A DNA stretch of 64,000 nt from Kordiimonas pumila (GTDB lineage Bacteria; Pseudomonadota; Alphaproteobacteria; Sphingomonadales; Kordiimonadaceae). The stretch is from positions 2,067,501 to 2,131,500 of the forward strand of contig NZ_CP061205.1 in NCBI RefSeq assembly GCF_015240255.1. The letters run 5' to 3'. Shown in pieces: positions 7,355 to 57,560 of this stretch. Position numbers and translations under genes: made by a program. Numbering within the stretch: the stretch's first letter is position 1; each line of letters begins with the position of its first letter. The notes beneath the pieces are model-generated. The model was not told where the DNA came from. It saw nothing but the letters and a program-made list of their open reading frames with translations, and ran no database searches.

Positions 7355-7429
7355 ATGCTCTACAGTGCGGTGGTTAAAGAGTTACAGTTATCGCACACAT
7401 AATATTGAAACACAAAGTGGATGAAATCT

Positions 7430-7630: not shown

Positions 7631-7839
7631 ATAGTTTTATACTGCCTACTTCTAGAAGTATCAGATATGGAAGTGTACCATTACAAGTAAAGGACCTAGG
7701 TTAGATGAATTCACATATTAATAGAGACCGTAAAAGCACACGGAAAATATCACGATAAATATATAGAATATGAGTATATTGAATATATAAACTAAACGCA
7801 GTCAAGGCCATTAAAGTAATATACATTTATGGGGATAGC

Positions 7840-18511: not shown

Positions 18512-18528
18512 CTCCTATTACTAATACT

Positions 18529-19503: not shown

Positions 19504-19522
19504 TGTTTTCTCCTATCAAATC

Positions 19523-19543
19523 TTGGCGTAATTTTGGCGTAAT
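19523..19543. repeat. Tandem TTGGCGTAAT direct repeats before the integrase
   Basis: TTGGCGTAAT occurs at 19523-19532 and again at 19534-19543, one DNA helical turn apart, 20-40 bases upstream of the integrase start. Repeats at this position commonly serve as arm-type integrase or excisionase sites, or as an autoregulatory operator. The exact role is inferred. Confidence 0.5.
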
Positions 19544-19728
19544 ACGACCAAATATTTACGCTTTAGACTCAATAGAGAATACTAGTAGATGAGGGTGGTG
19601 TGTAAATGTAACTATTTGAAATTATTGAAAATAATACAAATAACTACAATTTACCTTTCTTGTTTGACCCGCTGGTCGCGGGTACCACTTCAAAGAAACT
19701 TTACCTATTTTATACGGCCTATTTAAAA

Positions 19729-19748
19729 AGGGCTGGTTTCCCAGCCCT
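19729..19748 (-). terminator. Intrinsic terminator of the TonB receptor operon
   Basis: Perfect 8-bp stem (AGGGCTGG at 19729-19736 with CCAGCCCT at 19741-19748) and a 4-base loop. Read on the minus strand it is followed by TTTTT, 35 bases after the receptor stop codon. Confidence 0.8.
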
Positions 19749-19782
19749 GTTATAGTTTTTAAATATAAAGCTTCAGCGCAGT

Positions 19783-41285: not shown

Positions 41286-42623
41286 ATGTTGGGGCATGAA
41301 GTTGTGTTTACACTTAATAATCGTGAATTAGCTTTAGTCATTTGGCTGGGTATTTTTTTACTTTGTTGCCTCGCTAAAACTGAAATTCGTCACAGTATTT
41401 GGGCTGCTCTTAAAAGTGCTATGACACCGACCTTAGTTAAGTTGGTGTTGCTCATATGCCTTTATGTTGCTCTGCTAGTATATGGCCTCAGCCTTATAGG
41501 TTTGTGGGAATCCTCCGGTTTAAAAGTGACGGTCCTATGGGTTATGACATCGGGTATAGTGGTATGTAGCAAGACTGACGCAATACGCACCGATGAACAG
41601 TTTTTTAAAAAACAAGTGTGGGCAAATGTTAGTGCCGTTACTTTGTTTGAGTATATAGTTGCATTTCAGCCATTTAGTTTGAGTATAGAACTAATTGTAT
41701 TTCCTTTAGTTGTAGTCATATCGGTATGGTATGCTGTTGCAGCACAGGATCACAAAAATAAGTCCGTAGAAAACTTGATGATTACACTGCTTTTAATATG
41801 GGCATGTGTTTCATTTTATCATTCAGTTGATTACATAATTCACCAAGAACAGGCAGGTTTAGTGCTTGAAACCGCATATGATTTAGTTTTTCCATTAATG
41901 ATGACAGTGTTGTTCTTACCGTTTCTTTATATTTTGAGGTTTTATGTTGTTTATGAAATTGTTCTGATACGTATAGGGAATACTATGCCAGACAAGCTCA
42001 GAAGATGGGCATGTATAGAGGCAATAAAGGCGTTCAAATTTGATACTTTCCTCCTTGACCGTTGGAGCAATTCAGTTGTTTTGCGTAGGCTGACTACCAA
42101 AAAAGAAGTTATGATGTTAATTAATGAACAGTTCGTCTTACATAAACACGAACAGCAGCCGCACTTTATCCATCATAGTGATGGTTGGTCACCATATTTT
42201 GCACAAAAATTCCTCTCAATAGTAGGTTTGGAAACAAATAGTTACACATATTATTATGAAGAAGAGTGGGGTGCTTCATCTCCGCCTTTAAAGTTTGGCG
42301 ATCGCTTAAAGTCTAATAGTATATCATATTTTATAACCGGTGATCTTAAGGCGGCTAAAAATCTAAAAGTTATGACAAGTATCCATGATATACATAGGGA
42401 AGATGAGGCAAAAAAAAGATTACTAGAGGCATCAGAGTTACTAACTACAAAAGCTATAAAGCGTGACATGCCTCTTAACATAAGAGCAGCCATTTTAGCT
42501 GGGAAAGGTCAAGAAGAGAAAGTTGATGACAAGAAGCTCATGGTAAGCCGTATTGATTGGTCAAATATAAACTCTGCAGGTTACACAATGAATTTTAGTG
42601 TTGAGCATATTGATCGAAGTTAG
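41286..42623 (+). CDS. Six-helix membrane protein, NNRE / DGWSP family (second copy)
   Basis: A 445-residue protein homologous to the island protein at 17126-18511: NNRELALVIW at 11-20, about six membrane segments before residue 225, then a soluble domain with DGWSPYFA at 299-306 and a following LETNSYTYYY region matching FETDYYHA. No HEPN-like partner is present; it stands alone 22 bases after recG and before a toxin-antitoxin pair. The gene is clearly AT-richer than recG and sulP, suggesting lateral arrival. Function unknown; the pairing in the other locus suggests a conflict-related role. Confidence 0.75.
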   Translation: MLGHEVVFTLNNRELALVIWLGIFLLCCLAKTEIRHSIWAALKSAMTPTLVKLVLLICLYVALLVYGLSLIGLWESSGLKVTVLWVMTSGIVVCSKTDAIRTDEQFFKKQVWANVSAVTLFEYIVAFQPFSLSIELIVFPLVVVISVWYAVAAQDHKNKSVENLMITLLLIWACVSFYHSVDYIIHQEQAGLVLETAYDLVFPLMMTVLFLPFLYILRFYVVYEIVLIRIGNTMPDKLRRWACIEAIKAFKFDTFLLDRWSNSVVLRRLTTKKEVMMLINEQFVLHKHEQQPHFIHHSDGWSPYFAQKFLSIVGLETNSYTYYYEEEWGASSPPLKFGDRLKSNSISYFITGDLKAAKNLKVMTSIHDIHREDEAKKRLLEASELLTTKAIKRDMPLNIRAAILAGKGQEEKVDDKKLMVSRIDWSNINSAGYTMNFSVEHIDRS

Positions 42624-43461: not shown

Positions 43462-45135
43462 ATGGATCTTTACATGGCTTCGCAAGACTTTACCCCCAAA
43501 TTATGGACGCTTCTGCGCGGTGGGTACAGCATGCAAAACTTGCGGGCGGATTTTACAGCCGGCCTGACCGTTGCAGTGGTCGCCTTGCCGCTTGCCATGG
43601 CCATTGGGATTGCAAGCGGTGCCTCGCCCGATAAGGGGCTAGTGACAGCGATTGTGGCCGGGTTCCTTATTTCCCTGCTCGGGGGCTCGCGTGTGCAGAT
43701 TGGTGGCCCAACGGGGGCCTTCATTGTGGTTGTGTTTAATGTGATTGCCGAGCATGGCTATGACGGTCTTTTGTTGGCAACAATACTAGCCGGTTTTATT
43801 TTGATATTGGCTGGTTATGCCCGTTTTGGACAGGTTATACGGTATATTCCGTACCCTGTTGTAACTGGTTTTACGGCGGGTATTGCTGTCATTATTGCCT
43901 CGTCGCAGGTTCAGGACTTTTTTGGCCTTTCACTTGATGCTGTGCCCGCTGAGTTTTTGAGCCGCTGGGCTGCTTATGTGCATGGTTTTCCCAGCATGAG
44001 CATGGTTGCTGTTGTTGTTGGCCTTTCAGCCCTTTTCATTATTTTGGGGTTCAGGAAATGGGCACCGTCTGTTCCCGGTAATTTGGTGGCTGTGGCGGTT
44101 GTGTCCCTTGGGGTTTATGCTTTTCATATGCCGGTGGAAACAATCGCGGACCGTTTCCCGAATATAGCGGTGGGGTTGCCCACGCCGCAGTTGCCCGCGT
44201 GGGATTATGCAAAGTTTTTGGAAATTATCCCCTCTGCTTTTACGATTGCCTTCCTTGCTGGGATTGAGGCGCTTTTGTCGGCTATGGTGGCGGACGGGAT
44301 GACAGGGTACCGGCACAGGCCGGGACAGGAACTGGTGGGGCAGGGCGTTGCTAACATTGTCTCAGCTCTGTTTGCAGGATTACCCGCAACAGGGGCAATT
44401 GCGCGGACAGCTGTGAACATTAAATCGGGCGCAAAAACCCCTATTGCAGGCATGTTTCATGCGGCCTTCATACTTGCTTTTGTGGTGCTGGCTAGTGATG
44501 TGATGGGTTTTATTCCACTTGCGGTATTGTCTGCTATTTTATTCGTGGTCGCCTGGAATATGAGCGAAGTGCATCATTTTGTGCATATTCTGAAAATGCC
44601 GAGTAATGACCGTTTCATTTTACTGCTGACCTTCTTTTTAACTGTGCTGGTTGATTTGACGGTTGCAATTGGGGTGGGGGTTACACTGGCATCTTTGCAG
44701 TTCCTGTATGAGATGAGTAAATCTGAAAGCTTGCATGTACAGGGGCGAAAAATTCGTGATGATGAGGCTTTGATACCAGAGGATGTTCACCAGCGGGACG
44801 CGTTACCTGAAGGTGTTGAAGTGTTCCGTTTTATGGGGCCTATATTTTTTGGCATGGCTGACAGGTTAGCAGATAAGTTTCAGTCTATGGTGACAGCGCC
44901 AAAGGTGCTGATTGTGCGGATGAAGCTGGTGCCTTATATGGATGTGGCAGGGGTGCGGGTGATTGGTAACCTCGTGGCGCATTATAAAACTAAGGGCACA
45001 GTGATTATTTTTACGGGGCTTCAAGCACAGCCAAAAGAGATTCTGGAAAAGGCCGATATCCGCCCCACTGCACTGGATGTTCTATTTATTGACAGATACG
45101 AGGATGCTGTTAGGCGGGCATGTGATCTCGTTTAA
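43462..45135 (+). CDS. SulP-family anion transporter with STAS domain
   Basis: A 557-residue protein: LRADFTAGLTVAVVALPLAMAIGIASG (family signature, first membrane helices), about 12-14 membrane segments to residue 410, and a C-terminal STAS domain (about 440-550, with KVLIVRMKLVPYMDVAG). Members carry sulfate, bicarbonate or dicarboxylates; the substrate here is not determined. ATG at 43462 or 43474, neither with a clear ribosome site. Its stop overlaps the stop of the convergent GNAT gene. Confidence 0.9.
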   Translation: MDLYMASQDFTPKLWTLLRGGYSMQNLRADFTAGLTVAVVALPLAMAIGIASGASPDKGLVTAIVAGFLISLLGGSRVQIGGPTGAFIVVVFNVIAEHGYDGLLLATILAGFILILAGYARFGQVIRYIPYPVVTGFTAGIAVIIASSQVQDFFGLSLDAVPAEFLSRWAAYVHGFPSMSMVAVVVGLSALFIILGFRKWAPSVPGNLVAVAVVSLGVYAFHMPVETIADRFPNIAVGLPTPQLPAWDYAKFLEIIPSAFTIAFLAGIEALLSAMVADGMTGYRHRPGQELVGQGVANIVSALFAGLPATGAIARTAVNIKSGAKTPIAGMFHAAFILAFVVLASDVMGFIPLAVLSAILFVVAWNMSEVHHFVHILKMPSNDRFILLLTFFLTVLVDLTVAIGVGVTLASLQFLYEMSKSESLHVQGRKIRDDEALIPEDVHQRDALPEGVEVFRFMGPIFFGMADRLADKFQSMVTAPKVLIVRMKLVPYMDVAGVRVIGNLVAHYKTKGTVIIFTGLQAQPKEILEKADIRPTALDVLFIDRYEDAVRRACDLV

Positions 45136-46265
45136 ATCTTTTTCTCATACACCCGGTAGGTTTTATAAATAACGCAGCCGATTTCTTCTAGAATAGAGCG
45201 CATGCCGTCATTGTCTTCCAGAATCCAGCCAAGTTCGCCGAAGTAAGCGCCGCGTTTTTCAACATGCTTGCGGCTTTCATCTATCATCCACATGGCCATA
45301 GCTGCGCCCAGAGGGCCGCGCTGGAACTTTTTGCGCACACCCATCAGTGGCACGCGACAGCGGTCCTCACGGCCATTCAGCATGCGCCACAGAAGCTTGA
45401 AAATGCCGAAGGGCAATAGCTTACCGCCCAAATCGCGGATTTTATGGTTCACATCAGGGATTGTAACCATAAAGGCAACGGGTACATCGTCATACTCGCA
45501 GATATAAGTGCGGTAAGGTTTTACAATCTGTTTTAGGCTTTTAGCTGTATGGTCTACTTCTTCCTGAGTAAACTGCACATAGCCCCAATTGTCCTGCCAT
45601 GCTTCGTTGAAAATATCCATGATCACCTTTAGCTCGGCGTCATATTTTTTCATATCGATAGGCCGCAAGGTTACTCGCTGGTTTTTCTGGGCCATTTTAA
45701 CAATGCGTTTGGCACGGTCAGGCAGAGGGATGTTCAGGTCAAGCGAATAGGCAAACATGTCTTTTGCTTTTTCAAGGCCGTTTTCCTTGATCCAACTGTC
45801 ATAAGCGGGCAAGCCGTGCGGCATGAGTATGCAAGGTGGGGTATCAAAACCTTTAACAAGCGTACCGGTTTCCATGTTGGCAGAAAAAGACCAAGGCCCT
45901 TGCATGCGAACACAGCCGCGTTCTTTTAGCCATTTTTCTGCTGTTTCCAGAAGGAGGCCGGCTGTTTCCTGGTCTGCTGCTTCAAAAAAGCCAAAATGCC
46001 CCAGATTAGGGCCCCACTTTTCCTGCGCTAGTGAATCGATTTGTGCGCTAATTCGGCCAGTGGCTTTGCCGTCACGTTCTGCTAGAAAAAGGGCGACATC
46101 AGCATGCTTGAAATAGGGGTTGTTTTCGGGAAGTAGAACGTCCATGCGTTCTATCATCAAGGGCTGAATCCAGTTTGGATCATCTTTATAAACCGTTTCT
46201 GTCACCAGAACGAATTGTTTTAGATCATCTTTATCGGTTATTTGCCTGATAGTCAGTTCGCCCAC
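45132..46265 (-). CDS. GNAT-fold N-acyltransferase, candidate bacterial ceramide synthase
   Basis: A 377-residue protein of the YghO-like GNAT group: VYKDDPNWIQPLMIER near the start, GRISAQIDSLAQ, a central MQGPWSFSANMETGTLV and DTPPCILMPHGLPAYDSWI, and the late VPLMGVRKKFQRGPLGAAMAMWMID. As I recall, the Caulobacter ceramide synthase belongs to this group and acylates the sphingoid base amino group. Position at the edge of the sphingolipid genes (flippase, LptFG-like, kinase, SPT) supports that here. Soluble. Substrate is inferred from context. Confidence 0.7.
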   Translation of the reverse strand: MGELTIRQITDKDDLKQFVLVTETVYKDDPNWIQPLMIERMDVLLPENNPYFKHADVALFLAERDGKATGRISAQIDSLAQEKWGPNLGHFGFFEAADQETAGLLLETAEKWLKERGCVRMQGPWSFSANMETGTLVKGFDTPPCILMPHGLPAYDSWIKENGLEKAKDMFAYSLDLNIPLPDRAKRIVKMAQKNQRVTLRPIDMKKYDAELKVIMDIFNEAWQDNWGYVQFTQEEVDHTAKSLKQIVKPYRTYICEYDDVPVAFMVTIPDVNHKIRDLGGKLLPFGIFKLLWRMLNGREDRCRVPLMGVRKKFQRGPLGAAMAMWMIDESRKHVEKRGAYFGELGWILEDNDGMRSILEEIGCVIYKTYRVYEKKI

Positions 46266-46347
46266 GGGCGTATCCTTCCCAGTTTATTCTTTGGTACTCT
46301 TGGATAACGAAGCCAAGAAATTTTGCAAGTTATAAAACGCCTTGTGG

Positions 46348-47886
46348 TCATGATGTTTTTTTAGTTTTTTTACGTTTGCCAATTTTGCCCAAGGCGGCTG
46401 CGTCCTCAGGCGCTAGCCCAAATCTTATTATGCCAACAAGGCCCACAAGGAGCAGGAAAAGGGCTGTAACGATGCCGTAAGGTGGTTGCCACTGGAAGCT
46501 GTAGGGCACAAGCGCTAGCAAGATGCCCGAAAGCAATATGGCTGCTGCCATGGGGCGCAGCATTTGGCGATTATAAGGGGTAAGGCCAAAGAGAAATTTG
46601 GCTTGTATAAGGCTAAGGCCTGCTGTGGTGTTTAGGCCGCAGGCTGCCGCGATTGCTGCGCCAGTAACGCCGTAAAGTGGAATGAGGTGAAAGCCAAGGG
46701 CTAGCATCACAATAAGGCCAGCCATACCATTTGCGGGTGGTAACAGGCGGTGACCCAGCATCTCAATGATGGAAGACGAGGGGCCTGTGGCTGCTTCAAA
46801 CACACGGCCTGCACATAAAATGGCAATAGCGGCTGTCGCGGCTTCGAATTCTGGGCGCATGGCAGCTAGAATATCATGCCGGGCCAAAATAAGGGCAGCG
46901 CCAAAGGGCAGCGCTATTGTAACAGAAAGCCGGGTGGCATAGCCATACATGCTATCAAGTGCCTTGCGGTCACCGTGGCCTTCCTTTTCTGCCGCTAACG
47001 GTGCCATAACATATTCAAATGTCATTCTAACAGCTTGCAGGGCGCTGGCTATTTTCCGAGCGACAGAATAATAACCTCCAGCCGCAGCACCTTGTGCCCC
47101 CGGCAGCATGAAGTTCAGGAACATAACAGGGAATTCACTAAACAGACGCTTGATAAGGTTTGCCGGCATAATCGCATAGCAGTATTTTAATATTTCCTTT
47201 GGCGTTTCGCCTTGCAGTGGGGCTTTTATAATGGCTCTAAAGTTATAATGTTTTGCGACAAGTTTGAGCGCAAGTATGGCGGCGGCAATAACACTGAGAA
47301 GGTGTGCCAGAAAAAGACCGTATGTGAAAAGCCCAAGGGCTGCAAACGCCATCGCTGCAACAAGCCGTATGCCCTGTTCATAAAAAATACGCACCTTGAT
47401 TTCAGGGCCAAAGTTTCGTGTTGCTCTCACAGCAGCGGTTGCTACCTCAACCACAGTCCAGAACGGCAAAACCCATGCATAGAGGCGCATGACAGTGACC
47501 AGCTTTTCAGCGTCTGCATCAGCGGCACTAATGAAACCGGCAAGGTAGGGGGCAAAAAGAGTTATAGGCAGCGCAATAATGCAGCCAAAGAAAAAGCTTA
47601 TTTTTAGGGCAAAGCCTGTAATGTTGTCTGCATCTGCTCCTGCTTTTGGGATGTAACGCTGCAAGGCTGTTGGCATTGCAGCCTCGGCTATACCCGTCGC
47701 GACCTTTATATAGCTCCAGAGTACGGCATAGAGACCAAAGGTGGCTGCGCCGTATGCCCATGTAAAAGCAATAACGGAAGCAACTTCAATAAGCGCCCCC
47801 ATGCGGCCGACAAAAGCGAGGCCCGCGCCGCCTGCAATTCGTTCTTCGTGGCTTTTAAGGGGGGCGCTGTTTAGGGGGTCAGTCAT
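46348..47886 (-). CDS. Wzx/MurJ-like lipid flippase
   Basis: A polytopic protein of about 512 residues from the ATG at 47886, with around 12-14 membrane segments and no soluble domain, of the polysaccharide/oligosaccharide transporter (MOP) superfamily. That start overlaps the LptG-like stop by eight bases (ATGACTGA), indicating coupling; an upstream in-frame ATG at 47952 would overlap by 74 bases and is rejected. MOP proteins flip lipid-linked precursors across the inner membrane. Its place among sphingolipid genes suggests a sphingolipid or glycolipid substrate, which is inference. Confidence 0.75.
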   Translation of the reverse strand: MTDPLNSAPLKSHEERIAGGAGLAFVGRMGALIEVASVIAFTWAYGAATFGLYAVLWSYIKVATGIAEAAMPTALQRYIPKAGADADNITGFALKISFFFGCIIALPITLFAPYLAGFISAADADAEKLVTVMRLYAWVLPFWTVVEVATAAVRATRNFGPEIKVRIFYEQGIRLVAAMAFAALGLFTYGLFLAHLLSVIAAAILALKLVAKHYNFRAIIKAPLQGETPKEILKYCYAIMPANLIKRLFSEFPVMFLNFMLPGAQGAAAGGYYSVARKIASALQAVRMTFEYVMAPLAAEKEGHGDRKALDSMYGYATRLSVTIALPFGAALILARHDILAAMRPEFEAATAAIAILCAGRVFEAATGPSSSIIEMLGHRLLPPANGMAGLIVMLALGFHLIPLYGVTGAAIAAACGLNTTAGLSLIQAKFLFGLTPYNRQMLRPMAAAILLSGILLALVPYSFQWQPPYGIVTALFLLLVGLVGIIRFGLAPEDAAALGKIGKRKKTKKTS

Positions 47887-49036
47887 GGGAGGCGTGATGC
47901 TTTCCTCTTGGACGGGTGCCTTCTTCGGTATGAAAGATGACCGAGTATCCAACCAGCAGGAATAAGAAGAACGGCGCCCATGATGCTAGAAATGGTGGTG
48001 CAACGCCAAATTCTCCCATCGCCAGCATGAAATTGTCAGCGACAAAAAAGCTAAAGCCTAAGGCCATGCCAAACACCAGCCGGACAGCAAGATTGCCAGC
48101 GCGCTGAATGCCAAAGGCTGCAACAGCGGCAAGCAAAGGCATCAGTAGGGTTGAGGCCGGGCCTGCAAATTTTTGCAAAAAGCTCGACATCAGCCTGTCT
48201 GTTGGCAGGCCTTCTTGCTTCAGCCGGTTCATGGATCGCCACAACCCAACAAAAGAAACATGGTCAGCTTTTACTGTAAGGGCCAGAAAACGGTCTGGCT
48301 GGCTTTTGATATCCCATGTCATGGTGGGGTGTATTGTTAGTTCGTGGGAGTCTGCATTAAACCTGCGCACTTCGTGCAAGGTCCACACACGGTCCTGATA
48401 CCATGCAAAATCAGCGCTAACCATGGCAGTGAGTTTGCGGTTTTGGTCGCGCTCGAAGATAAATACTTTATCGAGTACAAGGCGTTCGCCGTGGCGGCTT
48501 ACAGCCTGTGCCATAATAATATTATTATCTTCCTTAACCCAGACGCGACCAGAAAGCGCGGTGCTGGGGGGAAGGTCAACGGCGTAGTTATTATCTTGCC
48601 AGTAATCGAGCGCAGCATTGCCTTTGACGACAATTGTTTCATTAAAGGCAAAATGGCACAGGGCAACAATAAGGGAGGCAAGGCCCAGAGGTAGCAAAAT
48701 ACGGTGTGCAGATAGCCCGCTCGCTTTCATAATAATAACTTCGCTGTGCTGGTTGAGTGTCGCCAAGGTGAGAAGTGTTGCCAGCAATGCAGTGAACGGT
48801 GAAAACTGTGAGATTAACTGCGGGGCTCTGAGGCTTACGTATGAGACAAGCGAGGTCCATGTGGCACCGTCTGCCTTCATGATATCATCGGAGGTGGCGA
48901 GCAGGTCGAGGAATTGCAAAACTGCAGTGAGGCCAATGAGCATGCCCAGAAAGCGGCCAAGGTACATTTTCACCATATAGCGAGCGATGGTACGGGACGG
49001 GAAAAATAGACGTCTTATTTGACGGATAAGGGTCAT
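47879..49036 (-). CDS. lptG: LptG-like permease of a lipid-export ABC system
   Basis: A 385-residue YjgP/YjgQ-family protein: two N-terminal membrane helices with MVKMYLGRFLGMLIGLTAVLQF, SFSPFTALLATLLTLATLNQHSEVIIMKASGLS (family signature region, positions about 75-110), a large periplasmic domain and three C-terminal helices with LLAAVAAFGIQRAGN. Forms a heteromer with LptF and LptB for lipopolysaccharide transport. It overlaps the LptF-like gene by four bases and the flippase gene by eight. Separation from the usual lptD neighbourhood and placement in a sphingolipid locus suggest a paralogue for another lipid. Confidence 0.82.
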   Translation of the reverse strand: MTLIRQIRRLFFPSRTIARYMVKMYLGRFLGMLIGLTAVLQFLDLLATSDDIMKADGATWTSLVSYVSLRAPQLISQFSPFTALLATLLTLATLNQHSEVIIMKASGLSAHRILLPLGLASLIVALCHFAFNETIVVKGNAALDYWQDNNYAVDLPPSTALSGRVWVKEDNNIIMAQAVSRHGERLVLDKVFIFERDQNRKLTAMVSADFAWYQDRVWTLHEVRRFNADSHELTIHPTMTWDIKSQPDRFLALTVKADHVSFVGLWRSMNRLKQEGLPTDRLMSSFLQKFAGPASTLLMPLLAAVAAFGIQRAGNLAVRLVFGMALGFSFFVADNFMLAMGEFGVAPPFLASWAPFFLFLLVGYSVIFHTEEGTRPRGKHHASHD

Positions 49037-50226
49037 AAATCATCCATCCCCATGATTTTTTTACTAAGCTTTTTAATGGGCCCACTGATAGCTCCCCATA
49101 TGCTGTCAATAAGGGCGAGCGGTTCCCCGCCTGCTCTGAATGCAGCAATATGGAAAAAGAAGAAACTAAGGCCTGCAAACCCAGCAAACAGAAGCCATAT
49201 AGACGAGTAAGGCGAGGCACCATGATGGACGGCGGTTTCCATTGCTTCCATAAATTCGTTGTAAACAATCAAGAGTGACAGGCCTATCACTATGCCCGTT
49301 CCCCGGCCTGTTCTCTTATTGGTAATACCCATAGGTACTGCCAGAAAAGGAATAACAAAAAAGGATAAGCTATGCATTAGGCGCCAATGGAAATTACCAT
49401 TAAAGGCAGCGCGCATTTCTGCTGACTGGAGAGGGTTATTTCGCTCCACATATAATTCGGGCAAGGTTAGCTCAAGCTCTTCCCCGCCGCGTTCGCGAAA
49501 ACTATCGCGTGCGGGAAGGTGAATTTTAAGATCTTGTCGATCAAAGCTTAAGACACGTGGTTTGTTTTGTCGTTCGTTTAAATCTACAAGTCTACCGTTA
49601 TAAAGGCGTAACAGAATGGTTTGATCGTCCCCTGTCGCATAAAAACCACCTCGTTCGGCGGTTATTGCCATGCTGCCACGTTCATTGCGCCGTTCCATGA
49701 AAATACCGTGCAGTTCAGCACCTTTTTTATGGGATTCTTCAACAAGCAAGGTGATGTCGTCACCAAGGTCGATAAACTCCCCAACACGGATGCTGGCACC
49801 AAGGGCACCGCTTCTTAGGTCGAAGACCAAACCTCTATATGTATAGCGGCTATAGGGCTGAACCCAGCCGACAAGAATAGTGTTAATAACGGCAAGGAAC
49901 ATGGCCAACAATAAAAGAGGGCGCATCAACCGCATCAGGCCAATACCCGACGATGTTATGGCATCAAATTCACTTGATAGTGATATTTTTCGGAATGCGA
50001 GTAAAATGCCCAGTAATAACCCAACAGGCAGAGCAAGGCCTAAATAGTGCGGCGTTAGGTTTGCCAGCATTTGAAAGACAATGTTCGCGGGTCCGCCTTG
50101 ATTAACGACAAAATCAAACAACTTGAGCATTTTCTCAAGAATCAACAATAGAGCCGCTACGCCTAAGGTAGACAACAAAGGCATCATTACCTGACGCAAG
50201 AGATATCGGTCTATTTTTGTAAACAT
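49033..50226 (-). CDS. lptF: LptF-like permease of a lipid-export ABC system
   Basis: A 397-residue YjgP/YjgQ-family protein: RYLLRQVMMPLLSTLGVAALLLI opening, ALPVGLLLGILLAFRKISLSSEFDAITSSGIG (family signature near 60-95), periplasmic domain (about 125-290) and C-terminal helices with PMGITNKRTGRG. Partner of the LptG-like protein, whose ATG overlaps this stop. No LptB, LptC or LptA gene is adjacent, so the ATPase would be shared or elsewhere. Expressed toward the flippase and divergent from the DUF2141 gene by about 180 bases. Confidence 0.82.
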   Translation of the reverse strand: MFTKIDRYLLRQVMMPLLSTLGVAALLLILEKMLKLFDFVVNQGGPANIVFQMLANLTPHYLGLALPVGLLLGILLAFRKISLSSEFDAITSSGIGLMRLMRPLLLLAMFLAVINTILVGWVQPYSRYTYRGLVFDLRSGALGASIRVGEFIDLGDDITLLVEESHKKGAELHGIFMERRNERGSMAITAERGGFYATGDDQTILLRLYNGRLVDLNERQNKPRVLSFDRQDLKIHLPARDSFRERGGEELELTLPELYVERNNPLQSAEMRAAFNGNFHWRLMHSLSFFVIPFLAVPMGITNKRTGRGTGIVIGLSLLIVYNEFMEAMETAVHHGASPYSSIWLLFAGFAGLSFFFFHIAAFRAGGEPLALIDSIWGAISGPIKKLSKKIMGMDDL

Positions 50227-50408
50227 ATGTTGGCGCTACACCGGTTACAGGATTGATTCAAGTGTCTTTTTAGCTCATTGTGGCGCCAAACACGGCAAAT
50301 GCATGTTGTGTTATACATGATTTAAGGTCATATGGGACATAATTTCGCCACCATCAGGTTGCATTTGCTGTATAAATCTTGCAGGCGTTTTATAGCCGGG
50401 AGTACTGA

Positions 50409-50984
50409 ATGTATTGTAAATTTTACTACAGGGTGTTGCTATTAATCGCAACCTTTGTATTCAGTTCCCAGTCAGGATGGTCTTTTGATATTAAAAGTCA
50501 GGAAATTCTAGATGAACAGGAAATTAAGTCTGACCCTGTTCATGTTGCTGAAGGGGATTGTTCCAAGAACGCTGCTGGGCCGGCTGTTTTGGTGCGAGTA
50601 GAAAATATTAAAGATGTTGAGGGGAATCTGCGCGCTCAGGTTTATGGGCCGAACCCTGATGATTTTTTGGAGAAAGGTAAAAAACTGGTCCGAGTGGATG
50701 TCCCGGTAACGTCTGAAGGGGAACAGGAAGTATGTGTGCCTTTTCCTAGTGTTGGCCAGTTTGCTTTAGTCGTGATGCATGACAGAAACGCGAATGGTAA
50801 GGCTGACTTTTTCAGCGAAGGCTTTGGTTTTTCAAATAATCCCAAGCTAAAATTGGCAGCCCCTGACGGTGAAGATGTGATGTTTACTGTTGTTGAAGGC
50901 ATTAGCAAAATGACAGTTGAGTTGAAATATATTTTTGGATCAGATGAAAAACAGGAAAAGCGCCGTAAACTAAAACGCCGTTAG
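50409..50984 (+). CDS. DUF2141 periplasmic protein (CpgA-like)
   Basis: A 191-residue exported protein: signal peptide (1-25), then a DUF2141 domain with VRVENIKDVEGNLRAQVYG, the acidic FALVVMHDRNANGKADF loop resembling a calcium-binding motif, and a very basic C terminus (KQEKRRKLKRR). GGGAG before the ATG. From memory, the Caulobacter locus for anionic ceramide-phosphoglycerate has a DUF2141 protein beside the ceramide kinase; the same order (DUF2141, lipid kinase, NTase-like, SPT region) is seen here. Function unresolved. Confidence 0.72.
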   Translation: MYCKFYYRVLLLIATFVFSSQSGWSFDIKSQEILDEQEIKSDPVHVAEGDCSKNAAGPAVLVRVENIKDVEGNLRAQVYGPNPDDFLEKGKKLVRVDVPVTSEGEQEVCVPFPSVGQFALVVMHDRNANGKADFFSEGFGFSNNPKLKLAAPDGEDVMFTVVEGISKMTVELKYIFGSDEKQEKRRKLKRR

Positions 50985-51081
50985 TGTTGAAAAAAGATCA
51001 AAACCCGGTTATGTAGTGCCGCGTCATTAATTTGTCATGTAGGGATTTGCCCTGATATCTGTGTAACCGGAGCTGAATTGC

Positions 51082-52080
51082 ATGCAGCTGGATAAAACAA
51101 ACCTGAAATCGGGTGCTGTTGTACCGCTGGTGGCAATTGTCTCTAATCCATTGAGTACGACAAACGCTGGTGGCATGCACGCCATTCGCAAGCTTCTTAA
51201 TGAAAGTGCAAATGTTGTTCACTTTGAGCTGAACGGCATAGAAACTGTTGACGAAGCCCTAAGCTTGTTTGGTAAAGCCAACCCTGCAATGCTAATTATT
51301 AATGGCGGTGATGGTACTATCGGGGCGGTCCTTGCCTCTATTGTGCATAAAAACCCTTTCAAAGTCATTCCGCCGATTGCCTTTATGCCTGGCGGTAAAA
51401 CTAATATGACGGCTTCTGATTTAGGCTTTAAAGGCCGGCCTATTCGGGTCTTGAAAAAGCTTTTGCTGCTGGCAAAAGAAGGACGGATACCTGAGCACTT
51501 GACGACAAGAAGCGTTATTGAAATGGATTTAGGTGACGGGGAATTGCCTCGCGTTGGAACTTTTTTTGGAACAGCGGGTGTTGTTAAGGGTATTTTTTGG
51601 TGCCGTGAGAATGCCTATTCCATGGGGTTGCCAAATACGCTTGCGCACTTTGTGTCTTTCACAAAGCTTCTGGTGTCGGCAATTGGTTTTGGCCGTGAAA
51701 AAAATCTTCTGGTCTCTGACCCAATGACGATTAGCATCCCTGGTAGTGGTAGAATGGCTGGTCAGTATGCTTCTGTTGTGGCGACTACACTTGATAAGCT
51801 TTTATTAGGGTTGCGGCCTTATGGAAAAGAGGGCGTCGGTGGCTTGGGCTTCTCTGCTATTGAATCAGGAAGTGGTAACCTTTTTAGGGCCTTTAAAGGC
51901 TTGGTGACAGGTAGTTTTGGCACCAAAACTATTCATGGTAGCCATGTAAGGCGTAGCAACGAGATTAGAATAGAGGGCACAGACCCTGTTACGCTTGACG
52001 GCGAAATTTATCATCCGATTGCAGGTATACCAATAACGCTGCGGGGAAGCACGGCTCTTACCTTTATTTCACTAAAATAG
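51082..52080 (+). CDS. Diacylglycerol-kinase-fold lipid kinase, candidate ceramide kinase (CpgB-like)
   Basis: A 332-residue protein with the DAGK catalytic fold: VAIVSNPLSTTNAGGM start and the nucleotide-binding INGGDGTIGAVL (GGD at 75-77), FMPGGKTNMTASDLG and the late GSHVRRSNEIRIEG followed by TLDGEIYHP, matching bacterial lipid kinases. No membrane segments. Between the DUF2141 gene and an NTase-like gene, opposite the SPT operon. In Caulobacter the equivalent gene phosphorylates ceramide; the same role is inferred. Confidence 0.78.
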   Translation: MQLDKTNLKSGAVVPLVAIVSNPLSTTNAGGMHAIRKLLNESANVVHFELNGIETVDEALSLFGKANPAMLIINGGDGTIGAVLASIVHKNPFKVIPPIAFMPGGKTNMTASDLGFKGRPIRVLKKLLLLAKEGRIPEHLTTRSVIEMDLGDGELPRVGTFFGTAGVVKGIFWCRENAYSMGLPNTLAHFVSFTKLLVSAIGFGREKNLLVSDPMTISIPGSGRMAGQYASVVATTLDKLLLGLRPYGKEGVGGLGFSAIESGSGNLFRAFKGLVTGSFGTKTIHGSHVRRSNEIRIEGTDPVTLDGEIYHPIAGIPITLRGSTALTFISLK

Positions 52081-52087
52081 GACAATC

Positions 52088-53017
52088 ATGCCCACTTCAA
52101 CACATGCGGCTGTGGTGAACTTTATTCATCATGAATGGCAGCGCTCAGTGCCTGAACCAGTTATGTTGGCAGCTGCTGATATTGCTTCAAATTATGGTGA
52201 TGCTGTGGTTGGAGTTTTGTTTTATGGATCTTGCCTTAGAACTGGTGAAATTGAAGATAAGGTTCTGGATTTTTATGTCATTGTTGATAGCTACAAGGCG
52301 GCCTATAAAAAACGTTGGTTAGCAATTGCCAACAAAATGCTTCCTCCAAATGTATTTTATCATGAAATGGACGCTTGCGGTATTAAGGTTCGGTCGAAAT
52401 ACGCTGTTTTATCGCTTCATGATTTGGGTTTTAGAGTTAGCTCAGAATGCCTGAATGTATCGGTTTGGGCGCGTTTCTGCCAACCATGTTATTTGCTGCA
52501 AGCAACGGATGCCAATACCCGGTCTGTAATTGAAGGCTATGTTGCTGATGCAGTGATAACAATGCTTTCAAACATACTGAAATTAAAGCCCACATTACGT
52601 GTCTCGCGTGATATGTGGGTCGCGGCATTCGAGCAGACATATGCTGCTGAATTGCGCTCGGAACGTAAAGGTAAAGGACTGGAGATATATCTGCTGGATC
52701 AAGAGCGTTATGATATGCTTACCCCAGTTGCGTTTGATGCTCTGGGGCTTGGACCGCAAGTAAAGCAGCCAAGTCGGATAGCTGCTTTGAAGGCACAAGT
52801 CATATGGGCGCTTCGGCGCTGGAATGGCAAGATTGTTAGTTTTCTGCGTCTTATAAAAGCATCTATGACTTTTGATGGTGGAATTGATTATCTGGCATGG
52901 AAAATTAAACGTCATTCTGGCGTTGAGATAGAAGTTACAGACTGGATGCGCAAACACCCGGTACTTGCTGGGGTTACGTTGTTCTGGAGGCTTCGAAAAA
53001 AAGGTGCCTTCAAGTAA
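52088..53017 (+). CDS. Nucleotidyltransferase-fold-like protein (candidate CpgC-type)
   Basis: A 309-residue protein. VGVLFYGSCLRTGEIEDK then VLDFYVIVDSYK resembles the G-S...D strand pattern of polymerase-beta-type nucleotidyltransferases, though the second acidic residue is not obvious. The C-terminal half is basic and helical with WKIKRH and an amphipathic end. Seven bases after the lipid kinase gene, so they are co-transcribed. By position it matches the third gene of the Caulobacter ceramide-phosphoglycerate set, as I recall it. Function inferred from context only. Confidence 0.6.
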   Translation: MPTSTHAAVVNFIHHEWQRSVPEPVMLAAADIASNYGDAVVGVLFYGSCLRTGEIEDKVLDFYVIVDSYKAAYKKRWLAIANKMLPPNVFYHEMDACGIKVRSKYAVLSLHDLGFRVSSECLNVSVWARFCQPCYLLQATDANTRSVIEGYVADAVITMLSNILKLKPTLRVSRDMWVAAFEQTYAAELRSERKGKGLEIYLLDQERYDMLTPVAFDALGLGPQVKQPSRIAALKAQVIWALRRWNGKIVSFLRLIKASMTFDGGIDYLAWKIKRHSGVEIEVTDWMRKHPVLAGVTLFWRLRKKGAFK

Positions 53018-53018
53018 A

Positions 53019-53040
53019 AAGCCAGCGAAAATGCTGGCTT
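53019..53040. terminator. Bidirectional intrinsic terminator
   Basis: Perfect 8-bp stem AAGCCAGC / GCTGGCTT with a 6-base loop between two convergent operons. On the minus strand it runs into TTTTTAC, serving the SPT operon; on the plus strand a looser T-rich tract follows. Confidence 0.85.
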
Positions 53041-53064
53041 CTTTGTGGTTTTAAAAATCTGTGA

Positions 53065-54261
53065 TTAAAAGTCCATATTGATAATTTTTGCCGTTCGTAT
53101 AAAGCGGGCAATTATTTCGTCTATTTGCTCTGCAGTGTGCTGTGCACAAACGCTGACACGCATTAAAAAGACACCGGAGGGCGTTGCTGGCGGGGCTGCC
53201 ATGTTGGCATAAACGCCTTCCATAAGCAGTTGTTCCCAAAAGCGTGTACCAATCATAGGGTCAGGTAAATGTACCGCAATAATAGGGCTTTCTGCTTCTG
53301 CCGTTGCTAAGTTAAAGCCTGCTTTTTTCAAACCTGCATGCAGGCGGCGGGCATTTTCCCAAAGGTGAGCACGGCGGTTGCCGTTATTCTTGATAGCCTT
53401 AATAGATGCTGTAGCCGTAGCCACCACACTTGGTGGCAGGCTTGCTGTAAAAATATAAGGGCGTGATACAAACCGAAGGACGTCAAACTTCGGGTGGTTT
53501 GATACGGCAAACCCACCGATGGTGCCAACTGATTTAGAGAAGGTGCCGACGATAAAGTCAGCAAGGTGTTCCACCCCTAGTGCTTCAGCTACCCCGCGGC
53601 CATTAGGGCCACAAAAGCCCATAGAATGAGCTTCATCCACTAGGGTCATGCAGCCATATTTTTTAGCTACTTCAAGCATTTCTTTTAAGGGGGCTGTGTC
53701 CCCCAGCATTGAGTAGATACCTTCAACAACAACAAGTTTTCCGGCATCAGCAGGTAAGCGTTTCAAACGCCGTTCCATGTGATCAACATCATTGTGTTTG
53801 AAGCGCACTATAGTGGCATTGCTCATGGAGCAGCCATCATAGATGGATGCATGGCTATCAGCATCGATAATAATGAAGTCATCTTTGCCGCCAAGGGCAG
53901 AGATCATGCCCAAATTAGCTTGGTAGCCTGTTGAAAACACCATGCAGTGTTCCATGCCGTAAAAGTCGGCAAGGGTTTCCTCTAAGAGCTTATGGCCACC
54001 ATATGTGCCATTAAGAACACGAGATCCTGTGGTGCCTGTACCAAACTTTTCAAGTGCCTCTTTACCAGCAGCGAGGGCATCTTCATGAAATGTCATGCCC
54101 ATATAGTTATTAGTGCCAGCAAGGATAGTTCTGCGCCCATTAATGACGGCTTCAGTTTCGGAGAGAATTTCATCCATAACTACTTTAAAGGGATCGGCTT
54201 TTTCAAATGGCAAGGATGTGCGCAAGGCAACAATTGAATCAAATTTATCCAGTAAGTCCAT
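53065..54261 (-). CDS. spt: Serine palmitoyltransferase (SPT)
   Basis: A 398-residue PLP-dependent alpha-oxoamine synthase that condenses serine with a long-chain acyl thioester. Seen: TNNYMGMTFHEDA, the glycine-rich FGTGTTGSR, H137 in DSHASIYDG, VDEAHSMG (D209, H212) and the PLP lysine K243 in GTFSKSVGT. BioF and KBL share the fold, but the adjoining ACP, reductase and fatty-acyl ligase genes make SPT much the best call. It is the last gene of a minus-strand operon (ligase, reductase, ACP, SPT), ending before a strong terminator. Confidence 0.88.
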   Translation of the reverse strand: MDLLDKFDSIVALRTSLPFEKADPFKVVMDEILSETEAVINGRRTILAGTNNYMGMTFHEDALAAGKEALEKFGTGTTGSRVLNGTYGGHKLLEETLADFYGMEHCMVFSTGYQANLGMISALGGKDDFIIIDADSHASIYDGCSMSNATIVRFKHNDVDHMERRLKRLPADAGKLVVVEGIYSMLGDTAPLKEMLEVAKKYGCMTLVDEAHSMGFCGPNGRGVAEALGVEHLADFIVGTFSKSVGTIGGFAVSNHPKFDVLRFVSRPYIFTASLPPSVVATATASIKAIKNNGNRRAHLWENARRLHAGLKKAGFNLATAEAESPIIAVHLPDPMIGTRFWEQLLMEGVYANMAAPPATPSGVFLMRVSVCAQHTAEQIDEIIARFIRTAKIINMDF

Positions 54262-54265
54262 AGTA

Positions 54266-54514
54266 TTAGCTGCCTTTGTTGACGATTTTTTCTACAGCGT
54301 CGGCCACATGTTCAATAGTTTCCAAATCAGGAAGAATATTAAGCGGCAGGATAATGTCGAATTCGTCTTCGATCTCGGCGACTAGGTCCATCACAGTCAG
54401 GCTATCAAGCTCAAGGTTTGATGCAAATGTGGTTTTTGGAGAAAGCTCAATCCCTTTTTTGTTGAGGGGAGCAATAAGCTGGTAGATTGTTTCTAGTGTT
54501 TGGGCGTTAGCCAT
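54266..54514 (-). CDS. Acyl carrier protein of the sphingolipid operon
   Basis: An 82-residue ACP with the phosphopantetheine serine S38 in LELDSLTVMDLV and the following acidic helix. It is not the housekeeping fatty-acid ACP by sequence or position; it lies four bases before the SPT gene. It probably holds the acyl group that the ligase loads and SPT consumes. Confidence 0.88.
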   Translation of the reverse strand: MANAQTLETIYQLIAPLNKKGIELSPKTTFASNLELDSLTVMDLVAEIEDEFDIILPLNILPDLETIEHVADAVEKIVNKGS

Positions 54515-54580
54515 ATATCCGCGTGCCTTCTATTATGAGGTTACGTTGTCTTTAGTCGTCTTATATCGGTAGAAAGCTTT

Positions 54581-55534
54581 TCATAAAAGCCCGTTTTTTT
54601 TGTACCAGTCAATAGTGTTGCTTAACCCAGCTTTAAGATCAAAGTGTGGCTTCCACAATTTAAGCTTTGGTAGCAGCTGTTGTCTTACTGTCCAATCAGG
54701 ATGGCACAAATAGCGTGCGGTGGAAAGTGTGAGCATGGCAGGGCGGTGGATTGCGTTTGCCATCATGCCGTTGATGACGCCTACTGTGCCGAGGATGGCA
54801 AAGGGTAACGAAAATACTTTTGGTGTTTTTTTACCATCAAAAGTTAGAGCCTCTGCCACATCTTTAAGCTGGTACCCGCGTGATTTCCCATCATCTATTT
54901 CCAAAATTTGGGCTCTGTGCGGTTCTTCAATCAGTGCAACGATTGCGGCGGCCAAGTCAGCTGCATGAATCATGGAAAATCGGTTATTTTTATTGCCAGG
55001 TGCCGGTAAAATACCAAACTTTGTTGCCTTTAAAAGCTTGAGTATTTCTTTGTCGCCTGGGCCGTATATGGCTGGTGGTCGTAAAATAGTCCAAGAAAAA
55101 GGCCATTTTCGTGCTGTTAATAACAATTCAGTGCCAGCTTTGCTCGCACCGTAATGGGATAACCGTGGTTCTCGTGCCGCGAGGCTGGAAATATGAATAA
55201 CCTGCTTTATGTTTTGTGCGGCTGCACAGTCAAAGAGCGACAGGCTTCCTGCGACATTCACATCAAAAAAGGCATCACGGTTTAAGGCTTTGGTGAGGCC
55301 CGCCAGATGGATAAGGACATCCGCACCTTCGCAGAGGTTAAGGAGGCTTTCCTGTTCTGACAGTGCACCGTGAACCCATTCGACATTGGGAGTACTGGGT
55401 TGGCGCTTGCGGGTAAGGGCTTTTATCTGATAGCCCGCGGTAACCAAGGCATTAAGCACATGACCACCCAGAAAGCCGGTAGCGCCGGTCAGTGCGATAA
55501 CTTGACCAGTTGGACTGCCTTTTTCTGATGGCAT
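54581..55534 (-). CDS. NAD-dependent epimerase/reductase, candidate ceramide reductase
   Basis: A 317-residue extended SDR: GATGFLGGHV (17-26) for the cofactor, VLIHLAGLTKA, and the catalytic HYGASKAGTEL (Tyr and Lys with a preceding serine in IHISSLA). A C-terminal region of about 120 residues would bind substrate. In Caulobacter an SDR in the same position reduces the 3-keto group of the ceramide pathway, as I recall; that is inferred here. Follows the acyl ligase gene with a one-base gap and precedes the ACP gene by 66 bases. Confidence 0.78.
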   Translation of the reverse strand: MPSEKGSPTGQVIALTGATGFLGGHVLNALVTAGYQIKALTRKRQPSTPNVEWVHGALSEQESLLNLCEGADVLIHLAGLTKALNRDAFFDVNVAGSLSLFDCAAAQNIKQVIHISSLAAREPRLSHYGASKAGTELLLTARKWPFSWTILRPPAIYGPGDKEILKLLKATKFGILPAPGNKNNRFSMIHAADLAAAIVALIEEPHRAQILEIDDGKSRGYQLKDVAEALTFDGKKTPKVFSLPFAILGTVGVINGMMANAIHRPAMLTLSTARYLCHPDWTVRQQLLPKLKLWKPHFDLKAGLSNTIDWYKKNGLL

Positions 55535-55535
55535 G

Positions 55536-57284
55536 TTAACTGGCCACGGCTTGCAGGTTTCCTGCTAGGTACTGGATTCTAGCTTTCGTCCTACTTAGTT
55601 TTCCTGATGAGGTTCTGGGTAGTGATTTGGGAGAAACAAGTTCAATAAGGCAGTTTACGCCCGTGGAGTTTTGCACCTGACGTTTCATTTCTTCCACAAG
55701 TTTAGCGCGGTCTGCCGGATCAGAAAGCCTGCACTGTGCCAGTATGAGCGGCACTTCTTCAGCATTATCACCCGGAATGGAAATAGCGGCAACATCACCT
55801 GTTTTAACACCGTCAATTTGCTCTGCTGCCCATTCAATATCTTGTGGCCAATGGTTTTTACCATTCACAATGATCATGTCTTTAGCTCGGCCGACAATGA
55901 AAATATCACCGTTTTTCATGTAGCCCATGTCGCCAGTGTCTAGCCAGCCTTCTGGGCTAAGCACGGCACGTGTTGTCTCTGGGTCATTGAAATATTCCCG
56001 CATAACAGACGTGCCGCGCAAATGCACACGGCCTACTTGACCAGTTGGTAATGCGTGATCATCTTCGTTGCGGATTTCAATCTCATATTCAGGTAGTGGT
56101 GTACCACAGTTGACAACTTCACGGACACGGCTACCTGCAACGCCGTTAACAAGCACATGGCGGTCACCCGTTAAAAGGGCTTCTTCAACAAGGTCGATCT
56201 CAATGCCTTTGCCAACTTTACCAAAGCTAACACCAAGGGTGCATTCCGCAAGGCCGTAGCTCGGGAGAAAAGCTTTGTCGGAAAAGCCAATTGCCTCGAA
56301 AGTTTCATGGAACTTCCGCATAACATCAGGGCGGATCATTTCAGCACCAATGCCTGCAATACGAACGCTTGACAGGTCCAAGCCTTCCATCGCAGTTGTT
56401 CGCATTGCTGCACGGCGTGTGCATATATCAAAGCCGAATGTAGGGCTATATGTCAGAGTGCCCTTATTTGCTGTAATGACCCGTAACCAACTTAAGGGGC
56501 GACGCGCAAATTCTTCTGTTGGTATAAAGTCAACAGATACCTGACAGGTGATTGTTGTAAGAAGTGTGCCAACAAGACCCATATCATGGTAAAAGGGTAG
56601 CCATGAAACACAGCGGTCACTCTCGATAAGCTCTACGCCGTATTTACCCATACCGTGGGTATTGGATAGCAAAGACCTATGCGTAACAGCGACACCGTGT
56701 GGGAACCGTGTACTGCCAGAAGAATACTGCAAATAGGCAAGGTCATCAGGCGAAGGGTATAGAAGTTCTGCGCCGTCTTCAGCTTGCATATAGTCTTCCA
56801 TAGAGCCGCTAAACACCAGATTCAGACCACTGGTAGCTTCAGCAATAATGTCGGCCATAAAGTCAGGCGCCATTATGCCATTTGCTGCACAGCTCTCCAT
56901 TTGCATTTGCAACTGAGATACATAACCCTCTTTGCCACCAAAAGATGTTGGTAAAGGGAGGGGGACAGGCAGCACGCTTGCGTACTGGCAGCCCATGAAA
57001 AAGCACACAAAGTTTGCACTGGTTTCTGCGATTAAGGCAATCCTGTCGCCCTTCTTGAATCCAAGGCCAACAAGCTTTTTGCCAATGGCGATAGCGCGAT
57101 CACGTGCTTCTTTCCAAGAAAGGACTTCGACAACGTCGCCCTTTGCATTGAAGAAATTTGCACCGCGTTTACCCTGTGCGGCATACTCGATGGCGTCAAC
57201 AAGTGTATCAAAATCCGAAAACCGCCGAGGTAGCCCTGGATCGTGTGTAGGTGTAACTACAGTCATTGCGTCCGCTTCAACCAT
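55536..57284 (-). CDS. Fatty-acyl-AMP/CoA ligase of the sphingolipid operon
   Basis: A protein of about 582 residues from the ATG at 57284, in the adenylate-forming family. The core motif YLQYSSGSTRFPHGVAVTH, the DTGDMGYMKNGDIFIVGRAKD hinge region (family motif positions about 425-445) and the C-terminal SGKLSRTK lysine are present. It resembles FAAL-type ligases, which pass acyl groups to an ACP, as the adjacent ACP gene suggests. Start at 57284 chosen over 57395 by position of GGGAC; 57266 is also possible. First gene of the SPT operon, divergent from the aminotransferase gene. Confidence 0.82.
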   Translation of the reverse strand: MVEADAMTVVTPTHDPGLPRRFSDFDTLVDAIEYAAQGKRGANFFNAKGDVVEVLSWKEARDRAIAIGKKLVGLGFKKGDRIALIAETSANFVCFFMGCQYASVLPVPLPLPTSFGGKEGYVSQLQMQMESCAANGIMAPDFMADIIAEATSGLNLVFSGSMEDYMQAEDGAELLYPSPDDLAYLQYSSGSTRFPHGVAVTHRSLLSNTHGMGKYGVELIESDRCVSWLPFYHDMGLVGTLLTTITCQVSVDFIPTEEFARRPLSWLRVITANKGTLTYSPTFGFDICTRRAAMRTTAMEGLDLSSVRIAGIGAEMIRPDVMRKFHETFEAIGFSDKAFLPSYGLAECTLGVSFGKVGKGIEIDLVEEALLTGDRHVLVNGVAGSRVREVVNCGTPLPEYEIEIRNEDDHALPTGQVGRVHLRGTSVMREYFNDPETTRAVLSPEGWLDTGDMGYMKNGDIFIVGRAKDMIIVNGKNHWPQDIEWAAEQIDGVKTGDVAAISIPGDNAEEVPLILAQCRLSDPADRAKLVEEMKRQVQNSTGVNCLIELVSPKSLPRTSSGKLSRTKARIQYLAGNLQAVAS

Positions 57285-57560
57285 ATTTGTCCCAGTACTT
57301 ATTATAGAGTAGCCGGACCTTATAAAAACAACAACCCTAAGCCCACACATTAAAAGTGTAGGCTTTGCATTCTTTAAACTAGGCGTATCATACACTAAAG
57401 ACTATAAATCGCTTGCATCGATTATACATAGCCTGTTCAGTTATACGTTAAAACGCCTGAATATTACGGCTGGATTACCGTTTGTTGCCAAATTTCGCAA
57501 GAGAATTTTGGTATATTCATTATATAAGTTGATTGATTAAGCATGGATTGCGGCTAAAAA

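Follow-up and report, generated by a model that had tools for sequence, protein, structure and literature searches.

What do the permeases LptF and LptG carry in a bacterium whose genome holds neither LpxC nor LpxB? The question is raised by a stretch of 64,000 nucleotides of Kordiimonas pumila (G000:C1:2067501-2131500, here called the window; the genome is a single contig of 4.04 Mb), in which eleven open reading frames (ORFs) occupying window positions 45132-57395 bring together five ceramide genes (aasR, acpR, cerR, spt and cerS, all present), a lipid kinase, a protein of 309 amino acids (the 309-aa protein), a DUF2141 protein, a flippase and an LptF/LptG pair (LptFG). The locus is of a known kind, from Caulobacter. 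It is likely, in our assessment, to be a sphingolipid synthesis-and-export unit in a bacterium that has lost lipid A, where an LptFG pair of a sphingolipid type would feed an acidic phosphosphingolipid to LptD.

The only LptF and LptG of the genome

The genome holds exactly two PF03739 genes, both in the sphingolipid block, which are its sole LptF and LptG and pass the Pfam and NCBIfam cut-offs for these permeases. Profile searches of the genome, which like those of the order below gave matches in Escherichia coli and Caulobacter as controls, gave neither LpxC nor LpxB, the two lpx genes that were looked for, so that both of these lipid A synthesis genes, expected alongside a lipopolysaccharide (LPS) exporter, are missing. 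The Lpt machine is represented by one copy of LptD (G000:C1:2535787-2536899, named by Pfam) in the order pepA-lptD-surA-pdxA-ksgA-gmk, where NCBIfam identifies pepA, pdxA, ksgA and gmk, and the gene after lptD is probably surA, going by the usual gene order. The pepA and lptD frames are 158 bp apart and lptFG is missing between them. In the LPS genome G118 both permeases lie between pepA and lptD, and a canonical lptG is found near lptD in all 11 LPS genomes compared by coordinates (G118, G124, G132, G136, G145, G146, G148, G155, G156, G159 and G165), with about 0.9-1 kb between the matched stretches. In G141, also LpxC-less, 308 bp separate pepA and lptD.

A sequence-only reading of this DNA had tied the flippase and the Lpt-like permeases to the lipid, a link that for the permeases is strengthened by their being the sole pair in a genome with no LpxC and no LpxB. 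Its list of genes at 45132..57284 also stands, since all eleven ORFs were found at the coordinates given there and were confirmed by Pfam or NCBIfam, the 309-aa protein being without a family:

45132..46265, minus strand: GNAT-like N-acyltransferase, candidate ceramide synthase CerS, at the CC_1154 position (PF00583, weak, 21.5 bits, cut-off 20.7)
46348..47952, minus strand: MOP/MATE-superfamily flippase (MatE PF01554, 30.7 bits)
47879..49036, minus strand: LptG, sphingolipid-locus type (TIGR04408, 283.6 bits, cut-off 240; LptG tree split 100/100)
49033..50226, minus strand: LptF, sphingolipid-locus type (TIGR04407, 238.6 bits, cut-off 230; LptF tree)
50409..50984, plus strand: DUF2141 protein with polybasic C-terminus (PF09912, 77.1 bits; alignment; adjacency to LptFG)
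51082..52080, plus strand: ceramide-kinase-like lipid kinase, at the CpgB position (DAGK_cat PF00781, 46 bits; GGDG at 75)
52088..53017, plus strand: 309-aa protein of predicted nucleotidyltransferase fold, closest to Tam41, at the CpgC position (AlphaFold model and PDB fold match)
53065..54261, minus strand: serine palmitoyltransferase SPT (NF047599, above cut-off; GTFSK at 239)
54266..54514, minus strand: acyl carrier protein AcpR (PF00550; DSL at 37)
54581..55534, minus strand: SDR reductase CerR (SDR/epimerase PF01370, 85 bits)
55536..57395, minus strand: fatty acyl-AMP ligase / acyl-ACP synthetase AasR (PF00501; NF006624, 795 bits, cut-off 600)

The genes form three blocks: lptF-lptG-flippase-cerS on the minus strand, DUF2141-kinase-309-aa protein on the plus strand and aasR-cerR-acpR-spt on the minus strand. 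The lptF frame runs 4 bases into lptG, and the junction sequence gives the flippase (9 hydrophobic stretches in a crude scan) a likely start at 47886, sharing 8 bases with the lptG stop. The ligase frame reaches 57395 by its first start, 57284 being a plausible later one.

The nearest relatives of the 309-aa protein in named genomes belong to Kordiimonas, Eilatimonas and unclassified alphaproteobacterial metagenome-assembled genomes (MAGs). Among 22 loci from Kordiimonads or close relatives (L009-L029 and L033, every one fetched via this protein), 19 have all eleven genes in the same order, which argues for a grouping beyond chance. The exceptions are a short contig (L021), a MAG contig without the flippase, LptG and spt block (L027), and Kordiimonas marina (L029), whose locus has no LptF and no DUF2141; its positions 7414-8981 show LptG followed directly by the kinase, with no runs of N. 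Additionally, 20-kb stretches around LptFG were compared in 20 genomes of the GTDB order, chosen among LptFG carriers for spread over seven families and not randomly: cerS occurs in 19, SPT in 18 and the 309-aa protein in 12, while L082 has neither cerS nor SPT in the stretch and L090 has cerS alone. cerS adjoins the flippase or LptFG in Kordiimonad loci and in loci of the order. Upstream of the block, the window contains a ParE-like toxin gene (PF05016, 43041-43403, plus strand) and, after recG, a 445-aa protein (41286-42623, plus strand) that matches no Pfam or NCBIfam model.

Two types of LptFG in the class

Is the sole pair of K. pumila a peculiarity of one genome? Of 118 genomes sampled from its GTDB order, none gave an LpxC or LpxB match, 112 have LptD and 109 have LptF/G. 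Exactly two LptF/G matches occur in 94 of these last, a single one in 1 genome and three to five in the other 14. A sample of the class (193 genomes with a completeness of 95 or more) lacks LpxC in 27 cases (20 listed directly, the other 7 deduced from the list of 166 genomes that have a match) and contains SPT in 31 at E 1e-100; 30 of these are above the model cut-off and G296 is a partial match just below it, 30 being the safe count because E. coli also matches at E 1e-100 without reaching the cut-off. SPT without LpxC occurs in 19 genomes, both together in 12, neither in 8 and LpxC without SPT in 154, so that LpxC is lost in 19/31 SPT-positive genomes compared with 8/162 others (Fisher p 2e-12, uncorrected for ancestry). 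The 19 genomes spread over 12 GTDB families. Two families are mixed (f26, with SPT and no LpxC in G232 and the reverse in G135, and f75, with G184 and G266), indicating that the switch occurred more than once if the families are natural groups. Outside the order, lipid A is presumed absent from the lack of LpxC. LptD is kept as one copy in 18 of the 19 SPT-positive, LpxC-less genomes compared with 3 of the 8 LpxC-less genomes without SPT, several of which are small, and the same 18 carry a sphingolipid-type LptG.

Trees and hidden Markov models (HMMs) distinguish this type from the canonical one. In the LptG tree, one branch with a support of 100/100 separates 43 sphingolipid-type from 16 canonical rows; in a first tree set, the split had 100/100 for LptG and 80/69 for LptF. 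The LptF tree groups 14 of 15 canonical rows at 100/99 and puts the fifteenth, L104, on a very long branch, and the claim of two types rests on the LptG trees and the HMMs, not on the LptF tree. In L104 (G131:C2:491000-510900), from an LpxC-bearing genome, a strongly diverged second LptFG-like pair lies near a synthase remotely like SPT (29%). The later loci (L111-L162) were assigned with HMMs trained on the first set, the LptG margin being 90 bits or more in every case but L156 (G296:C92), whose LptFG pair is intermediate (161 v 104); G296 has a canonical pair elsewhere (L157). Across the class, the best 26 matches of the sphingolipid LptG profile all fall in SPT genomes, and G214 and G301 rank lower, yet are of the sphingolipid type by HMM. 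The type is thus present in 28 of the 31 SPT genomes and was not seen outside them; 14 SPT-less genomes checked by HMM are all canonical (L124, L125, L135, L136, L151-L155 and L158-L162) and the rest of the 162 were judged on score alone, apart from those in the trees.

Among the 18 LpxC-less SPT genomes with the type, 17 show one LptG-profile match and G184 shows two, the second unplaced; PF03739 totals in this group are two genes in G000, G005, G012, G141, G143, G157 and G170 and three in G019. The 10 LpxC-bearing SPT genomes with the type show two or three LptG-profile matches each, and a canonical partner is seen in 6 of them, by HMM in G133, G134, G186 and G208 and as a second listed LptG match in G236 and G284; for G231, G245, G286 and G301 a partner is suggested by match count, which also reaches two in SPT-less genomes since LptF or a fragment can match. 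LptD is single in all 18 LpxC-less carriers and in 11 of the 12 LpxC-bearing SPT genomes, with two in G284 (10% contamination), which suggests that both extractors use a single LptD. On balance, we lean slightly toward a scheme in which two LptFG cargo types, an LPS extractor and a sphingolipid extractor, share one outer-membrane gate: genomes for both lipids would have both extractors and one LptD, and lineages with the sphingolipid extractor could shed both lipid A and the canonical lptFG, so that the outer membrane would be free of LPS in 12 or more alphaproteobacterial families.

Regarding cargo, at least one of cerS, SPT, the kinase and the 309-aa protein occurs in the same stretch as sphingolipid-type LptFG in 27 of the 28 genomes, the 28th pair being on a 3.6-kb contig. 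In the SPT genomes lacking the type (G164, G173 and G296), no kinase and no 309-aa protein were found around SPT (within 20, 20 and 8 kb respectively), which points to a phosphorylated lipid and not bare ceramide. The permeases belong to the same family as those of enterobacterial LptB2FG (6s8g, 6mhu; E about 2e-27 for LptG and 1e-17 to 1e-20 for LptF). The residues that contact lipid A phosphates there, as given in the part of PMC6744409 consulted, are kept neither here nor in canonical alphaproteobacterial LptG. LPS-contact residues were rejected as a marker: lysine at E. coli position 34 is found in 0/16 canonical and 0/43 sphingolipid-type LptG, and arginine at 136 in 0/16 canonical. Other positions differ between the types, with arginine at 43 and at 44 in 13/16 canonical sequences each and aspartate commonest in the sphingolipid type, and tryptophan at 135 in 36/43 sphingolipid-type and 0/16 canonical sequences.

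Head-group genes and the predicted lipid

Which lipid would the block make? By its profile scores the synthase is SPT and not BioF or KBL, as the sequence-only reading had proposed. It scores 601.5 bits with NF047599 (cut-off 500) and 623.7 with the sister SPT model NF047603 (cut-off 670), thus passing one of the two NCBIfam proteobacterial SPT cut-offs, and it stays below those of BioF (326 v 426), KBL (glycine C-acetyltransferase, 320 v 460) and ALAS (255 v 339). With the acyl carrier protein, SDR, acyl-AMP ligase and GNAT protein also present, the proposed ceramide synthesis set is supported, and the kinase and nucleotidyltransferase support at gene level the anionic head-group route suggested in the same reading.

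The kinase contains GGDG and lacks CxxxCxxC, as reported for CpgB (PMC10331486, in part), a likeness by motifs with no Caulobacter sequence compared. The 309-aa protein matches no Pfam family. Its AlphaFold model (mean pLDDT 89.1) is closest to the CDP-diacylglycerol synthase Tam41 in complex with cytidine triphosphate (CTP) (7ecd, E 9.5e-7; 10% identity; template modelling score 0.47 on the query and 0.52; root-mean-square deviation 6.4), and the eight remaining PDB matches (E up to 0.001) all belong to aminoglycoside/kanamycin nucleotidyltransferases. With the Pfam Tam41 model, 1 of 15 members gives a match (E 0.016), and a profile of the 309-aa protein finds among PDB sequences a weak best match at E 0.02, a nucleotidyltransferase. 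A nucleotidyltransferase fold can be safely assigned from the model, kinship with Tam41 is likely, and by position and fold the protein would be the counterpart of CpgC. In this respect, CC_1161 is reported to have a CDP-DAG-synthase InterPro domain (PMC11324152, cited here and below from part of its text), and the CpgC mechanism is called unidentified in a 2026 preprint (PMC13228409, in part).

According to the proposed route, AasR would load a fatty acid onto AcpR, SPT would condense it with serine, and CerS and CerR would finish dihydroceramide. The kinase would then give ceramide-1-phosphate, which the Tam41-like protein may activate with CTP as a step toward ceramide phosphoglycerate (CPG). 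The MOP flippase would turn the lipid over, and the sphingolipid-type LptFG, with an LptB encoded elsewhere, would extract it from the inner membrane and pass it along the Lpt bridge to the single LptD, which elsewhere takes LPS.

The same reading had called the locus near-complete, which is too strong, and had counted DUF2141 in the head-group set, which is not supported. Searches of the 64-kb window by tblastn with queries from loci L036, L085 and L092 gave no CDP-alcohol transferase, CpgD-like, CofC-like, phosphoesterase or fatty-acid hydroxylase; counterparts of CpgA, CpgD and CC_1153 are likewise missing from the window with the L036 and L092 queries, which are counterparts by Pfam domain and not Caulobacter proteins, these searches being confined to the window. 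As none of these five accessory genes, which include those for CPG2, turned up there, we guess a single phosphoglycerate head group, hence CPG and not CPG2 as the product unless the missing genes lie elsewhere. Zymomonas mobilis is described as having genes for CPG but not CPG2 (PMC11324152). A MocA-like protein at 59298 was considered as CpgD and rejected; its best NCBIfam match is MocA/YgfJ (140.9 bits, cut-off 186) and it adjoins XdhC.

The DUF2141 protein tracks the LptFG pair instead, lying within 450 bp of a sphingolipid-type LptF or LptG in 40/40 matches, also where gene order is altered (L126); the stretches had been chosen for their LptFG or 309-aa protein, two genomes or more are counted twice (L028/L074 and L051/L086), and in L009, L079 and L080 the frame overlaps LptF owing to a false early start. 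Its model consists mostly of strands (mean pLDDT 73.5) and gave no PDB match at E 0.001 or better, hence no function; a crude hydropathy scan found no segment above threshold. Going by the N-terminus, we would guess that it is exported, and it may be an accessory component of the sphingolipid extractor. CC_1157, in the matching place in Caulobacter, was called probably unrelated (PMC11324152); our guess is that it is a DUF2141 protein.

In Caulobacter crescentus, the region CC_1168-CC_1152 likewise holds the ceramide genes, a kinase gene, LptF2/LptG2 and a flippase, with CC_1161 next to spt, and the order cerS-LptG-LptF ... kinase-CC_1161-spt-acp-cerR-aasR fits the Caulobacter gene numbers (PMC11324152), no Caulobacter sequence having been compared. 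Unlike that region, as far as it is described there, the flippase lies here between cerS and lptG, and CpgA, CpgD and CC_1153 have no counterpart in the window. Sphingomonas wittichii and Zymomonas mobilis have their genes scattered over 6 to 10 regions (PMC11324152), compared with one block here.

Proposed cargo of the sole LptFG pair and its meaning

Does the pair move the sphingolipid, then? Several observations weigh against this. Of the lipid A genes the searches covered LpxC and LpxB, and outside the order LpxC alone; of the Lpt components they covered LptF, LptG and LptD; the genome counts are uncorrected for shared ancestry; 14/109 order genomes have more than two LptF/G (e.g., G058, G064, G076 and G090), the extra copies being unplaced. 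The pepA-lptD junction is found in only 2 of 7 LpxC-less LptD neighborhoods (L163-L167, L169 and L170), no pepA match being present in the remaining five. The E. coli LptG LPS-contact residues K34 and R136 are also missing in canonical alphaproteobacterial LptG and do not discriminate. Five loci of family f8 (L084, L085 and L087-L089) combine LptFG with a kinase (24-26% identity; profile scores of 301-325 bits) and show no 309-aa protein in the stretch; CPG may thus not be the cargo in every lineage, and a different head group is likely in f8. Lastly, G164 has SPT and no LpxC, and it also lacks LptFG and LptD; it is possibly an LPS-free, Lpt-free diderm. Its SPT stretch (L139, G164:C1:1500000-1519900) comes from a 5.4-Mb single-contig genome and includes, at 17123-19903, a frame with a putative Cas9-like start.

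Among other explanations, the cargo of Lpt might be a different surface lipid, either a glycolipid or a lipid A from enzymes that escape recognition, the sphingolipid neighborhood being historical. The limits of the lpx and Kdo searches leave room for it, LptF/G-family matches also occur in Thermus, Deinobacterium, Thermotoga and Synechococcus (controls), and L082 has LptFG without a sphingolipid gene in its 20-kb stretch; we nonetheless consider it unlikely, because LpxC and LpxB are both absent from 118/118 order genomes and the sphingolipid-type LptFG was seen in SPT genomes only, with sphingolipid genes nearby in 27/28. It is rather more doubtful that the lipid takes another route to the outer membrane (AsmA/TamB, Mla or Lol-like) and that LptFG and LptD are kept for other needs: G164 manages without either, and transport was not tested in PMC11324152, which proposes LptC2, LptF2, LptG2 and the flippase CC_1166 as movers of phosphosphingolipids, but the retention of LptD in LpxC-less genomes with SPT, 18/19 compared with 3/8 in those without it, argues otherwise. 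That this is an ordinary Caulobacter-type CPG2 cluster in which only the host is new is very improbable despite the same proposed gene set, since CpgA/CpgD-like genes are not in the window and LptF2/LptG2 are second copies in Caulobacter, which has LpxC (control), whereas the Kordiimonad host has this pair alone, without LpxC or LpxB.

Probable export of a phosphosphingolipid by the sole LptFG is the reading that we carry forward. Sphingolipids in place of LPS are already known, as Sphingomonas koreensis is a sphingolipid former without LPS (PMC11324152). In the open-licence PMC literature, PMC11324152 alone bore closely on sphingolipids in connection with Lpt or LpxC, publication elsewhere being possible; new within that literature are the sole-copy sphingolipid-type LptFG without LpxC and LpxB in a Kordiimonad, the missing lptFG at pepA-lptD and the class-wide partition. 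The route of sphingolipids to the bacterial outer membrane is stated as unknown in PMC11324152, and the Kordiimonad genome offers a clean natural setting for this question, LptFG and LptD being kept, LpxC and LpxB gone and the only extractor lying in the sphingolipid block. A 2020 taxonomy paper considered that sphingolipids appeared restricted to Sphingomonadales (PMC7179689, in part); export by this LptFG would help to explain the natural loss of lipid A and predicts sphingolipids in many families outside that order.

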